64,000 nt of DNA, from NCBI RefSeq assembly GCF_900108515.1, contig NZ_FNWW01000003.1:248001-312000 (forward strand), given 5' to 3'. Numbering within the stretch: position 1 is the stretch's first letter; every line of letters begins with the position of its first letter. The DNA comes from Halobacillus karajensis. Lineage in GTDB: Bacteria > Bacillota > Bacilli > Bacillales > Halobacillaceae. Of this stretch, positions 48,729-62,781 are shown one piece after another. The notes below the pieces were generated by a model that had not been told where the DNA came from, did not search any database, and saw only the letters and a list, made by a program, of their open reading frames with translations. The position numbers were made by a program, and so were the translations under genes.

Positions 48729-49895
48729 ATGAAAGAAAATATAAAAATTTATAAAGAAAGTCTCGCAACCTTTTGGAAAGAGCGTAAGAAATCTCAGAAA
48801 GGAACGATTATAGGTGTTGGGTCTGTATTCTTATTCATCATCATTTTAGTGGCCATTTTTGCTTCCCATACAAAAATGGTTCCTCTTTACAGAGATCTGA
48901 CCTTACAGGAGGTCGGTCAAATTAAGATGGATCAAAATTTCAATTACTTTGACAGAAATGATTCGAAGGTCGCTGAGTCTGAAAATGCTTATACATATCA
49001 ACAAAATGTGAAGAAAGATATTGAAAGAGATATTAAGCAGAGAGTGCAACGAATGCTTGGGATGATGATCGGCCGACATAAAGTGATTGCCACTGTCACC
49101 GCAGACATTGACTTCACCAAAGAAAATCGTGTGGAGGAACTTGTCGAACCGGTCGACCCCGATACAATGGAAGGCTTGCCAGTAAGTGTAGAAAAAATTG
49201 AAGAAGCTTATGAAGGCGGCGTGCCTGAGGGTGGAGTTCCTGGGGTAGGAGACGAAGATACGATTGGGTATCCAGCAGACGACGACAGTTCTAACGGTGA
49301 CTATGAAATGAGTCGAGAAACGATCAACAATGAATTTAATCGTATTAAGAAAAATATTGAAGAAAGTCCTTATAAGGTACGGGATATAGGGATCCAAGTT
49401 GCTATTGATAATACAAAAGGAACGACACCAGAGGGAGAGGTGGAGTACTTAACAGCGTCGGAACAACAAACGGTTGAGGAAAGTGTACAATCTATCGTTG
49501 ATTCTATGATTACGACTTCGATCGATGGTGAGTATGGTCAGGTGGATACAGAAGAAAAAACTTCAATTGTCTTCCAGGAATTCGGCGGTGATCCGGAATA
49601 TCCGGATAACAATCAGGTAATCCCTTCGTGGGTTTACATCCTTGGTGGGATACTTGTGTTCATTATAATCGTTCTTCTCTTTATGTTAAGTCGTAGAAAG
49701 AAGACCACGGAAGAAGAAGAGGATCAGATGTTTGAGAAAGAGGAAGAGGCTCAGAAACCTAAACCTCAGGAAGTTCCAGGAATGGATGAAAAAGAAGATG
49801 AGGCAACACATAAACGAAAACAGTTAGAAAAAATGGCAAGAGATAAACCAGAAGATTTTGCGAAATTATTGCGATCATGGATTGCAGAAGATTAA
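48729..49895 (+). CDS. fliF: Flagellar MS-ring protein FliF with large in-frame internal deletion
   Basis: A 388-residue FliF, against roughly 530 in Bacillus. The N terminus is normal: a transmembrane helix (about 25-46), then KMVPLYRDLTLQEVGQIK. At residue 66-67 the sequence jumps to MDQNFNYFDRNDS, which in relatives lies about 140 residues further on. RBM1 and RBM2 are therefore missing. RBM3 with its beta-collar (about 90-250), the second transmembrane helix (about 301-322) and the FliG-binding tail ending LLRSWIAED are intact. The reading frame is kept. The ATG is preceded only by GGGGG. Real deletion or local assembly collapse cannot be told apart here. Confidence 0.9.
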   Translation: MKENIKIYKESLATFWKERKKSQKGTIIGVGSVFLFIIILVAIFASHTKMVPLYRDLTLQEVGQIKMDQNFNYFDRNDSKVAESENAYTYQQNVKKDIERDIKQRVQRMLGMMIGRHKVIATVTADIDFTKENRVEELVEPVDPDTMEGLPVSVEKIEEAYEGGVPEGGVPGVGDEDTIGYPADDDSSNGDYEMSRETINNEFNRIKKNIEESPYKVRDIGIQVAIDNTKGTTPEGEVEYLTASEQQTVEESVQSIVDSMITTSIDGEYGQVDTEEKTSIVFQEFGGDPEYPDNNQVIPSWVYILGGILVFIIIVLLFMLSRRKKTTEEEEDQMFEKEEEAQKPKPQEVPGMDEKEDEATHKRKQLEKMARDKPEDFAKLLRSWIAED

Positions 49896-49907: not shown

Positions 49908-50921
49908 ATGGCCTTAAGGAAATCAAAGTTGACAGGCAAACAAAAAGCAGCCGTCTTATTAATCTCCCTCGGGCCTGATGTAGCTGCTCAAGTATATAGG
50001 CATTTAGATGAGGAAGAAATTGAACAATTGACATTGGAAATATCATCGGTCCAAAAAGTCGATAGTCAAGAAAGGGACGACATTTTGAACCAATTTCACC
50101 AAATTGCCCTGGCTCAAGATTATATTTCGCAGGGCGGGATTGGGTATGCAAAAACCATACTGGAAAAAGCGCTAGGCTCTGATGAAGCAGCTACTATTAT
50201 TGGACGGTTGACTTCTTCGCTGCAGGTTAAACCGTTTGATTTTGCTAAGAAAGCAGATGCTCATCAAATTCTTAATTTTATTCAGAATGAACATCCACAA
50301 ACCATTGCTCTGGTATTGTCCTATCTGGATCCAGAGCAATCTGGCCAGATCCTCTCTGAGCTTCCTCAAGAGTTACAGGCTGATGTAGCGCGCAGAATTG
50401 CAACGATGGAATCCACTTCACCTGAAGTGATTAACCAAGTTGAACAAATCCTTGAAAGGAAGTTATCTGCGACGGTAACCCATGATTACACAGAAACCGG
50501 CGGTATACAATCTGTGGTAGAAGTTTTGAATGGAGTGGATCGGAGTACAGAAAGAACCATCTTGGATTCGCTTGAAATCCAAGATCCTGAACTCGCTGAG
50601 GAAATTAAGAAGCGGATGTTCGTGTTTGAAGATATTGTTACCTTGGATAACCGTGCCATTCAAAGAATCATTCGTGATGTAGATAATGACGATCTTCGCT
50701 TGTCGCTTAAGGTATCTAGTGAAGAAGTCAAAGATATTGTCTTCGGTAATATGTCAGATCGTATGGCCACTACGTTCAAAGAAGAGATGGAGTTCATGGG
50801 ACCCGTCAGACTTCGTGATGTGGAAGAAGCTCAAACACGGGTTGTGTCAACCATCCGTAGGTTGGAGGATGTAGGTGAAATTGTGATAGCAAGAGGTGGG
50901 GGAGATGACATCATTGTTTAA
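49908..50921 (+). CDS. fliG: Flagellar motor switch protein FliG
   Basis: A 337-residue rotor protein that binds FliF, FliM and the stator. N-terminal domain with KQKAAVLLISLGPDVAAQVYRHL, middle domain with the EHPQT motif (about residues 125-129), and the C-terminal charged torque helix KRMFVFEDIVTLDNRAIQRIIRD by position. The start follows AAGGAGG. It overlaps fliH by 17 bases. Full length and apparently functional. Confidence 0.97.
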   Translation: MALRKSKLTGKQKAAVLLISLGPDVAAQVYRHLDEEEIEQLTLEISSVQKVDSQERDDILNQFHQIALAQDYISQGGIGYAKTILEKALGSDEAATIIGRLTSSLQVKPFDFAKKADAHQILNFIQNEHPQTIALVLSYLDPEQSGQILSELPQELQADVARRIATMESTSPEVINQVEQILERKLSATVTHDYTETGGIQSVVEVLNGVDRSTERTILDSLEIQDPELAEEIKKRMFVFEDIVTLDNRAIQRIIRDVDNDDLRLSLKVSSEEVKDIVFGNMSDRMATTFKEEMEFMGPVRLRDVEEAQTRVVSTIRRLEDVGEIVIARGGGDDIIV

Positions 50922-60397: not shown

Positions 60398-61057
60398 ATG
60401 ATTTCAACAACGAGAATGACAGCCGCTGTTTTTTTATTCCTACTGTTGATAAGCCTATCCTCGCTTACTGTTATGGCGGAGCCAAGCGCCTTTGAATGTT
60501 TGGACAATCCTCAATTAGAGGGTTGCCCTTCATCGGAAGGTGGAGAAGATGTGGAAAAGCAAACAACGGAAAAAGCTGTTGAGGTGGGTACAGGCAGCAG
60601 TCTGATTTGGAATATAGTGAAGTTAATCTTTGCCTTAATTTTTGTGGTGGTTCTGATTTACGGACTCCTTAAATTTTTTAATCAAAAAAACAAAGTCTTC
60701 AATCAGAATCGTACAATGGAGAATCTGGGTGGAATGAATCTCGCTCCGAATCGATCCATCCAAGCTGTTCGGATAGGAGAGCAAATTCTTATCCTTGGGG
60801 TTGGTGAATCCGTACAGATGATTACGGAAATCTCCGATGAAGAAACGAGAAATGCATTGTTGAGACGAGAGAATAACGGAGGACCACAGCCACGGTTAGA
60901 TGTTAAGAAATGGATGGATAAATGGAATGAAGATCAACGGAAGGAGGATCCATCCTCTACACAATTTCAACATTTATTTGAAAAACAGCTGAATGATATG
61001 AAAGGTAAGAGGAGACAGGCGATGGATCAGAAGAGGAGGGGGGCGGATTATGAATGA
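60398..61057 (+). CDS. fliO: Flagellar biosynthesis protein FliO (FliZ)
   Basis: A 219-residue membrane protein: an N-terminal signal-like segment (about 8-26), a short external Cys-containing part, a second helix (about 70-92, LIWNIVKLIFALIFVVVLIYG by position), and a basic cytosolic tail. Size equals B. subtilis FliZ. FliO assists assembly of FliP in the export gate. The ATG at 60398 has AGAAGGA at better spacing than the ATG six bases earlier. It overlaps fliP by eight bases. Confidence 0.9.
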   Translation: MISTTRMTAAVFLFLLLISLSSLTVMAEPSAFECLDNPQLEGCPSSEGGEDVEKQTTEKAVEVGTGSSLIWNIVKLIFALIFVVVLIYGLLKFFNQKNKVFNQNRTMENLGGMNLAPNRSIQAVRIGEQILILGVGESVQMITEISDEETRNALLRRENNGGPQPRLDVKKWMDKWNEDQRKEDPSSTQFQHLFEKQLNDMKGKRRQAMDQKRRGADYE

Positions 61058-61715
61058 ATTCGTAGACCTCTTCTCCAGTTCAGATCCGGAAAGTGTAGCC
61101 ACTTCAGTCAAGTTCCTATTATTATTGACCATTCTTTCACTAGCTCCTGGGATATTAATATTAATGACGAGTTTCACTAGGATATTGATTGTTTTGTCTT
61201 TTGTAAGAACTTCTCTGGCTACTCAGCAAATGCCTCCGAACCAAATCCTCATCGGTATTGCCCTATTCCTCACTTTTTTTATTATGGCTCCGACGTTTGA
61301 AGAAGTAAATGAACAGGCGTTGACACCGCTGTTTAATGAGGAAATAACCTTGGACGAAGCCTATGAAGAAGCAAGTATACCAATGAAGGAATTTATGGGG
61401 AAACATACGAGACAGAAAGATTTGGCTTTATTTATGAATTATGCTGATTTGGAAGCTCCTGAGACCATACAGGATGTCCCTATAACCACTCTGGTTCCGG
61501 CCTTTGCGATCAGTGAATTGAAAACGGCTTTTCAAATGGGATTTATGATTTTTGTACCGTTCTTAGTTATAGATATGGCCGTTGCGAGTGTTCTTATGTC
61601 GATGGGGATGATGATGCTTCCGCCCGTTATGATTTCGTTACCGTTTAAGATTCTATTGTTTGTTTTAGTTGATGGTTGGTTTTTAATTACTAAATCATTA
61701 TTGGAAGGTTTTTAG
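61050..61715 (+). CDS. fliP: Flagellar export gate protein FliP
   Basis: A 221-residue polytopic core subunit of the FliPQR gate. LTILSLAPGILILMTSFTRI, RTSLATQQMPPNQ and the C-terminal MMMLPPVMISLPFKILLFVLVDGW regions are family signatures. It starts inside fliO. In assembled basal bodies the FliPQR gate sits within the FliF RBM2 ring, which is missing in this window's FliF. Confidence 0.97.
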   Translation: MNEFVDLFSSSDPESVATSVKFLLLLTILSLAPGILILMTSFTRILIVLSFVRTSLATQQMPPNQILIGIALFLTFFIMAPTFEEVNEQALTPLFNEEITLDEAYEEASIPMKEFMGKHTRQKDLALFMNYADLEAPETIQDVPITTLVPAFAISELKTAFQMGFMIFVPFLVIDMAVASVLMSMGMMMLPPVMISLPFKILLFVLVDGWFLITKSLLEGF

Positions 61716-61730
61716 ACAGGAGGTCTGCAC

Positions 61731-62000
61731 ATGAACAGCCAGATGGTTATATCGTTTGCTAAAGAAGGAATTTATACGGTCCTCCTTATATCTGGTCCCC
61801 TGCTTATTTTAGCACTTGCGATCGGTCTGCTTGTTAGTATCTTTCAAGCTACGACACAAATACAAGAACAAACTCTTGCTTTTATCCCGAAGATCGTAGC
61901 TGTAATGATAGGATTAATCGTCTTTGGCCCATGGATGCTCACCAATATGGTTGAGTTTACGGCTAATATTTTTAATAACCTGAACATCCTGGTGGGATAG
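61731..62000 (+). CDS. fliQ: Flagellar export gate protein FliQ
   Basis: An 89-residue protein with two transmembrane helices and the conserved LVSIFQATTQIQEQTLAFIPK loop. The CAGGAGGT site precedes the ATG. It is followed after four bases by fliR. Confidence 0.97.
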   Translation: MNSQMVISFAKEGIYTVLLISGPLLILALAIGLLVSIFQATTQIQEQTLAFIPKIVAVMIGLIVFGPWMLTNMVEFTANIFNNLNILVG

Positions 62001-62004
62001 CTTA

Positions 62005-62781
62005 GTGCTGGATGCTATTTATTTAACGAACATACCAGCATTTTTGCTCATCTTGGTAAGGGTGACTTCCTTTTTTGTTACGTTGCCTTTGTTTTCATAT
62101 CGGACGGTCCCCACTCGACATAAAATAGCCTTCAGTTTTTTCTTGGCTGTGATGATGTACTTTACGGTCCCCACTCCGTCTCTACCGATAGACAGCGAGT
62201 ACTTTCTGTTACTGCTTAAAGAAATGGGGGTCGGCATTGCGGTTGGGTTGTTAGCTTATATTATTTTGGCAGCCATACAAATCGCAGGTGGATTTATAGA
62301 TTTTCAGATGGGGTTTGCCATTGCGAATGTGATTGATCCACAAACTGGAGCCCAAAGTCCTTTAATTGGACAGTATTTATATATGATGACTCTATTATTT
62401 ATATTAGCTGTCGATGGCCATCACCTCATGATTGACGGGGTTTTTTACAGTTATGAATGGATCGCGGTGGATCAGTTTTTACCTTTGAGAGATGAGAGAT
62501 GGATAGTGTTTGTCATACAGTCATTTAATCAGATGTTCGTGATTGCTTTCTTAATGGCTGTTCCGATCGTGGGGTGCTTGTTTCTAGTAGATATTGCCCT
62601 GGGGATTATTGCAAGAACAGTCCCTCAATTAAATGTCTTTGTCGTTGGTTTACCCTTGAAAATTTTTGTCGCCCTTTCTGTACTGGTGATTGCTATGACC
62701 TTTTACGTCATGTTAATAAGAAATTTATTTGAGACTATGCTGATGACAATGCGTGAGCTTATGCAATTATTCGGAGGTTGA
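62005..62781 (+). CDS. fliR: Flagellar export gate protein FliR
   Basis: A 258-residue integral membrane protein with about six helices; LLILVRVTSFFVTLPLFS and QMGFAIANVIDPQTGAQSPL by position are typical, as is the PQLNVFVVGLPLKI block. GTG start with GGTGGG in the end of fliQ. Its 3' end contains the GGAGG site of flhB. Confidence 0.96.
   Translation: MLDAIYLTNIPAFLLILVRVTSFFVTLPLFSYRTVPTRHKIAFSFFLAVMMYFTVPTPSLPIDSEYFLLLLKEMGVGIAVGLLAYIILAAIQIAGGFIDFQMGFAIANVIDPQTGAQSPLIGQYLYMMTLLFILAVDGHHLMIDGVFYSYEWIAVDQFLPLRDERWIVFVIQSFNQMFVIAFLMAVPIVGCLFLVDIALGIIARTVPQLNVFVVGLPLKIFVALSVLVIAMTFYVMLIRNLFETMLMTMRELMQLFGG

Follow-up and report, generated by a model that had tools for sequence, protein, structure and literature searches.

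The MS ring of Salmonella is reported to contain 23 RBM2 subunits that form an inner ring, the hole of which takes the export gate (PMC8270960). A Salmonella FliF lacking residues 161-170, the i-loop of RBM2, is described as giving no motility, no flagella and no FlhA foci, with FliF-GFP foci persisting (PMC8092281); the RBM1-2 module swapped in a Salmonella FliF chimera in the same paper comprised residues 58-214. The organism in which this requirement for RBM2 is demonstrated is Salmonella and not a relative of Bacillus. Isolated RBM3 is reported to oligomerise into rings (PMC8786727). Hook completion in B. subtilis is described as needing FliF, and a hook-completion defect as blocking FlgM export and lowering sigma-D expression (PMC6613710); in experimentally evolved B. 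subtilis, motility genes including fliF were reported to be hit often (PMC10438812). Apart from Chlamydia FliF (PMC4768692), no natural FliF lacking RBM1-2 was found in the literature by title or start of the abstract, which is a weak absence.

The window analysed is a stretch of 64,000 nucleotides from the genome of Halobacillus karajensis (labelled G000; other G numbers denote comparison genomes), and all of its features given below lie on the + strand. The fliF gene (48729..49895) is placed between fliE and fliG and is an open frame of 388 aa, and the closest named matches of its product are from Halobacillus species. The genus sample used for comparison overlaps with these matches, L002 of G012 and L031 of Halobacillus faecis looking alike in the alignment blocks shown. 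At the junction (48926..48927) the protein reads ...EVGQIK|MDQNFNYF..., with the cut between 48926 and 48927; aligned with relatives, the gene is 441 bp (147 codons) short at the point where codon 66 (K66) meets codon 67 (M67), a loss of about a quarter of the coding sequence. The 441-bp span is present in 15 of the 15 distinct relative fliF sequences compared across the junction, these being the sequences with both boundary motifs; the fliF ORF finder required the motif PEDFA and 55 of 90 loci were retained. The missing part corresponds to approximately residues 68-212 of Salmonella FliF (by alignment, with residues counted by hand), and the remnants of RBM1-2 are about 10 residues of the front of RBM1 and the end of the last strand of RBM2. 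As judged from these alignments, the deletion begins slightly inside RBM1 and stops in the last strand of RBM2, so that the domain borders are not exactly matched.

The original prediction had stated that RBM1 and RBM2 were lost in frame and that residues 47-66 join directly to MDQNFNYF at residue 67. The loss is borne out by the absence of PF01514 and the retention of PF08345, the direct joining by the open frame and by the alignment of relatives; the predicted size (about 140 codons or 420 bases) was slightly low, the deletion itself being confirmed. A misread start or a frameshift was ruled out, the frame being open and alignable on both sides of the junction. Likewise, a split FliF with the segment moved elsewhere was ruled out: the first 215 residues of FliF from a relative, searched against the assembly with a limit of E 10, matched the retained stub alone. 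No second fliF copy was found in the genome.

The first transmembrane helix (residues 25-46, 48801..48866) is a hydrophobic stretch, with a helix at residues 21-47 in the structure model, and is followed by the post-helix segment with the residual start of RBM1 (residues 47-66, ...LYRDLTLQEVGQIK; 48867..48926), which was assigned by alignment to relatives and to Salmonella FliF. RBM3 and the collar (residues 87-285, 48987..49583) are retained, with PF08345 (RBM3) matching residues 111-255 at 68.4 bits (cut-off 23.8) and with Foldseek matches to RBM3/S-ring chains of FliF. The second transmembrane helix (residues 299-322, 49623..49694) is again a hydrophobic stretch, with a helix at residues 300-337 in the model, and the C-terminal tail (residues 357-388, 49797..49892) is conserved in a 32-row alignment and ends in LLRSWIAED. 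In known FliF proteins this tail is the FliG-binding part. The retention of RBM3, the second helix and the tail had also been predicted, and Pfam, the alignments and the model agree with it.

PF01514 (RBM1-2) had no match in the protein or in the whole genome (E up to 0.001); the full-length FliF of a relative carries both PF01514 and PF08345. The FliF equivalog TIGR00206 matched at 172.5 bits (cut-off 129.75; best stretch residues 67-388), compared with 378.4 bits for the full-length relative. In an AlphaFold model built from the 32-row alignment, which is a rough guide only (mean pLDDT 65.7, pTM 0.35), residues 48-84 had a pLDDT below 50 and most of RBM3 was of moderate confidence. All 18 Foldseek matches of this model with E up to 0.001 were FliF/MS-ring entries. 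An integrative FliF-YlxF model (9a67) ranked first and ring chains from Salmonella and Vibrio came next, with TM-scores by query length of just 0.22-0.35 for the matches. A promoter/terminator scan around fliF yielded 10 and 3 sites, where 9.0 and 2.6 were expected.

Three explanations had been offered with the original prediction, namely an assembly collapse near 48920-48935, a naturally minimised MS ring and a loss-of-motility allele. According to the first, the strain carries a full-length fliF from which about 441 bp were dropped during contig building or consensus calling; the assembly is a draft (4.07 Mb in 24 contigs), the genes neighbouring fliF are intact, and the interrupted fliF frames in the assemblies of G015, G061, G063, G075 and G171 may be errors, which would fit such an artefact. 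However, a collapse is disfavoured because the two breakpoints in the fliF of relatives have 0-1 bp in common and lack a long repeat: the longest exact word within 150 bp either side of the breakpoints was 8-9 bp in seven relatives, and no repeat was found at the junction in the H. karajensis gene. The usual word length of assemblers is far above 9 bp, and from the sequence an assembler would have had no evident reason to join the two breakpoints. The site is inside a 388,192-bp contig of an assembly with a completeness of 100 and a contamination of 0.37, the missing segment was not found on another contig, and a comparison of the lengths of 20 other operon proteins showed no loss near 441 bp. 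Altogether an artefact is considered unlikely. A deletion or collapse mediated by repeats was rejected on the same 0-1 bp at the breakpoints, the 8-9 bp nearby and the repeat-free junction.

Downstream of fliF, fliG (49908..50921) is an intact, separate ORF with its own domains, and fliP, fliQ and fliR (61050..62781), encoding the export gate normally housed by RBM2, are intact as well (operon comparison and Pfam in both cases). In length and identity, the 20 other operon proteins compared resemble their counterparts in relatives, and flhA, flhF, flhG, che genes and sigD are open frames downstream in the operon (operon gene names without a Pfam test were assigned from sequence and order). Another cluster comprises flgM, flgN, flgK, flgL, a yviE-like gene, fliW, csrA, hag, fliD, fliS and fliT, named from sequence and order except for hag, which was identified by its flagellin match; motA/motB are intact. 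Of the flagellar genes examined, which comprise the fla/che operon, the hag cluster and motAB but not, for example, flhO, flhP, cheV or the receptors, all except fliF are intact. A kept frame and intact neighbours would also be expected of a working FliF. Away from the intact hag locus, contig C11 carries a broken second flagellin-like gene (L118 5610-6628) with at least one stop between open pieces.

The comparison of fliF length in close relatives, proposed with the original prediction, showed an uninterrupted full-length gene of 536-559 codons in 19 of the 21 other genomes of the genus and two genes broken in other ways, the fliF of G015 being frameshifted and G017 retaining the first part only. 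Within the family, PF01514 was matched in 43 of 44 genomes, with G000 the sole genome without a match, partial matches in G017 and G024 and a match split in two pieces in G063. In a sample of the order, 289 of 299 genomes matched a full-length FliF query, five of them in two pieces (G000, G075, G156, G171 and G237). When these were rechecked, fliF of G075 and G171 was found to be split with RBM1-2 not lost, and that of G156 and G237 to be full length with a weak second match, leaving G000 as the only partial FliF among the matches listed; unlisted genomes were judged only by how many matches each had and by its best E-value, and eight genomes of the sample were re-examined. In a sample of the phylum, TIGR00206 was matched in 168 of 199 genomes, G000 included; the match spans TIGR00206 from position 50 or lower to 326 or higher, i.e. 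through RBM1-2, in 150 of the 150 genomes listed. A recheck of 17 more genomes gave 12 spanning RBM1-2, two with a frameshift (G495, G449) and three with fliF at a contig edge (G460, G482, G403). Thus no other intact FliF without RBM1-2 was present among the 162 assessable of the 167 other genomes in the phylum sample.

Several fliF genes split by a change of frame were seen in the course of these comparisons (G061, L119; G171, L120; G063, L122; G075, L123), those of G061 and G171, which belong to different families, both near residue 310. In G015 (same genus; L107) fliF and fliM are both interrupted, and these may be sequencing errors rather than biology.

Evolutionary rates were determined for G000 and 16 relatives (17 taxa), with the omission of G015 and G017 (broken fliF) and of G012, G019 and G021 (operon not included). 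The protein branch leading to G000 is approximately 0.19 substitutions per site. FliF and its partners show no decay; for FliF this follows from a branch at 1.39 times the expected value, which places G000 third of 17, and from changes at only 3 of the 155 sites that are invariant in the other taxa. The FliPQR set was at 1.16 times expectation (sixth of 17); adding FlhB and FliE to the set gave 1.21 (fourth of 17). Singled out after the first rate results were seen, FliP was at 2.13 (third of 17), FliG at 1.73 (second of 17) and FliE at 1.58 (fourth of 17), and other taxa reach similar rates for these three proteins. The FliP excess corresponds to about 13 changes versus 6, with four changes at otherwise invariant sites, all of them conservative. 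No convincing signal of compensatory evolution was seen in the partners of FliF, although these are on the fast side; the somewhat fast FliP, FliG and FliE could be used by a compensation reading.

These rates bear on the possibility of a naturally minimised, working MS ring, in which an S-ring of RBM3 and the C-ring would suffice and the gate would be held by contacts with FliE, FlgB and FlhA/FlhB. The retained frame and membrane helices, the intact flagellar genes examined, the ring formation reported for RBM3 alone (PMC8786727) and the FliP branch at 2.13 times expectation are in its favour. They are opposed by the abolition of Salmonella flagellation reported for a loss of 10 residues of RBM2 (PMC8092281), by the make-up of the FliP excess (about 13 changes versus 6, third rank, conservative changes at otherwise invariant sites), by the values for FliPQR with and without FlhB and FliE, by the stub of low pLDDT that the cut leaves in the model, and by the lack of a second example among the matches listed in the order sample or in the phylum sample. 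With FliPQR at 1.16 and no second instance, this option found no positive support and is judged highly improbable. An old loss of motility in which the flagellar genes were retained for another purpose has a similarly slight probability: most of the fla operon has been lost in some genomes of the family, but over the roughly 0.19 substitutions per site of the G000 protein branch fliF is the only flagellar gene broken among those examined. For the same reason either the deletion is young or the flagellar system is still in use, and a deletion that is recent relative to that branch is the most economical explanation.

The probable reading is that 441 bp were genuinely deleted in frame, and at an evolutionarily young date, from the only fliF found in the genome, which most likely makes the strain non-flagellated. 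Among the three options of the original prediction, the loss-of-motility allele is best supported because RBM2 is essential in Salmonella, no other intact FliF lacking RBM2 was sampled, and G017 and G024 of the same family keep only the start of fliF with most of the operon gone. What is left of fliF is approximately the first 111 codons in G017 (same genus; L121 2712-4108) and the first 95 in G024 (same family; L124 2936-3660). A short way downstream of these remnants lies sigD, intact in G017 and partial in G024, and in both the operon between the fliF remnant and sigD is gone at that place. Flagellar gene losses with their left end in fliF thus recur, and together with the frequent hits on fliF and other motility genes in the B. 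subtilis experiment they make a loss-of-function reading an ordinary one; the allele may be of natural origin or a product of culture. The deletions in G000, G017 and G024 all have their left end in or near the part of fliF that codes for RBM1.

Given a young loss-of-flagellation allele, the 388-aa FliF would still insert in the membrane and may form an S-ring of RBM3 that recruits FliG and the C-ring. Without the inner ring of RBM2 there would be no housing for FliPQR and FlhA and hence no export gate, export of the rod, hook and filament would fail, and FlgM would be retained inside the cell, with the sigma-D genes (hag, motAB, fliD) staying low. This expectation of an S-ring with FliG recruitment but no export combines the results on Salmonella FliF, isolated RBM3 and B. 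subtilis, by analogy with which the strain should be without hooks and filaments and have its sigma-D genes down. If real and null, the deletion is an ordinary loss-of-flagellation mutation, of use mainly as a natural allele in which the S-ring half of FliF is parted from the M-ring half while the flagellar gene set otherwise looks complete; it also cautions against taking a strain to be motile because its annotated operon is complete. If the strain is motile, the view that the inner ring of RBM2 must house the export gate would be overturned, and if a rotor base of an S-ring only works, RBM1-RBM2 would be dispensable outside Salmonella.

Compared with known systems, the protein is like the FliF of Bacillaceae (TIGR00206) in its position between fliE and fliG, in both membrane helices, in RBM3 and in the C-terminal tail, and unlike it in the absence of PF01514. 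SpoIIIAG shares with it an RBM3-like ring domain without RBM1-2, as seen in a weak fold match (5wc3, E 0.018). SpoIIIAG is a sporulation protein and is not known to have a C-terminal FliG-binding tail. The Salmonella i-loop deletion (PMC8092281) is similar in that part of RBM2 is gone from a FliF that is complete elsewhere, but was engineered and covers 10 residues, whereas the deletion in H. karajensis is natural and removes nearly the whole of RBM1-2. Chlamydia FliF is described as a natural FliF in which some of the SctJ homology region (RBM1-2) is missing; the SpoIIIAG-like (RBM3) domain is absent from it too, and it is fused to FliG (PMC4768692). Unlike the Chlamydia type, FliF of H. karajensis contains PF08345, and its fliG is a separate ORF at 49908-50921.
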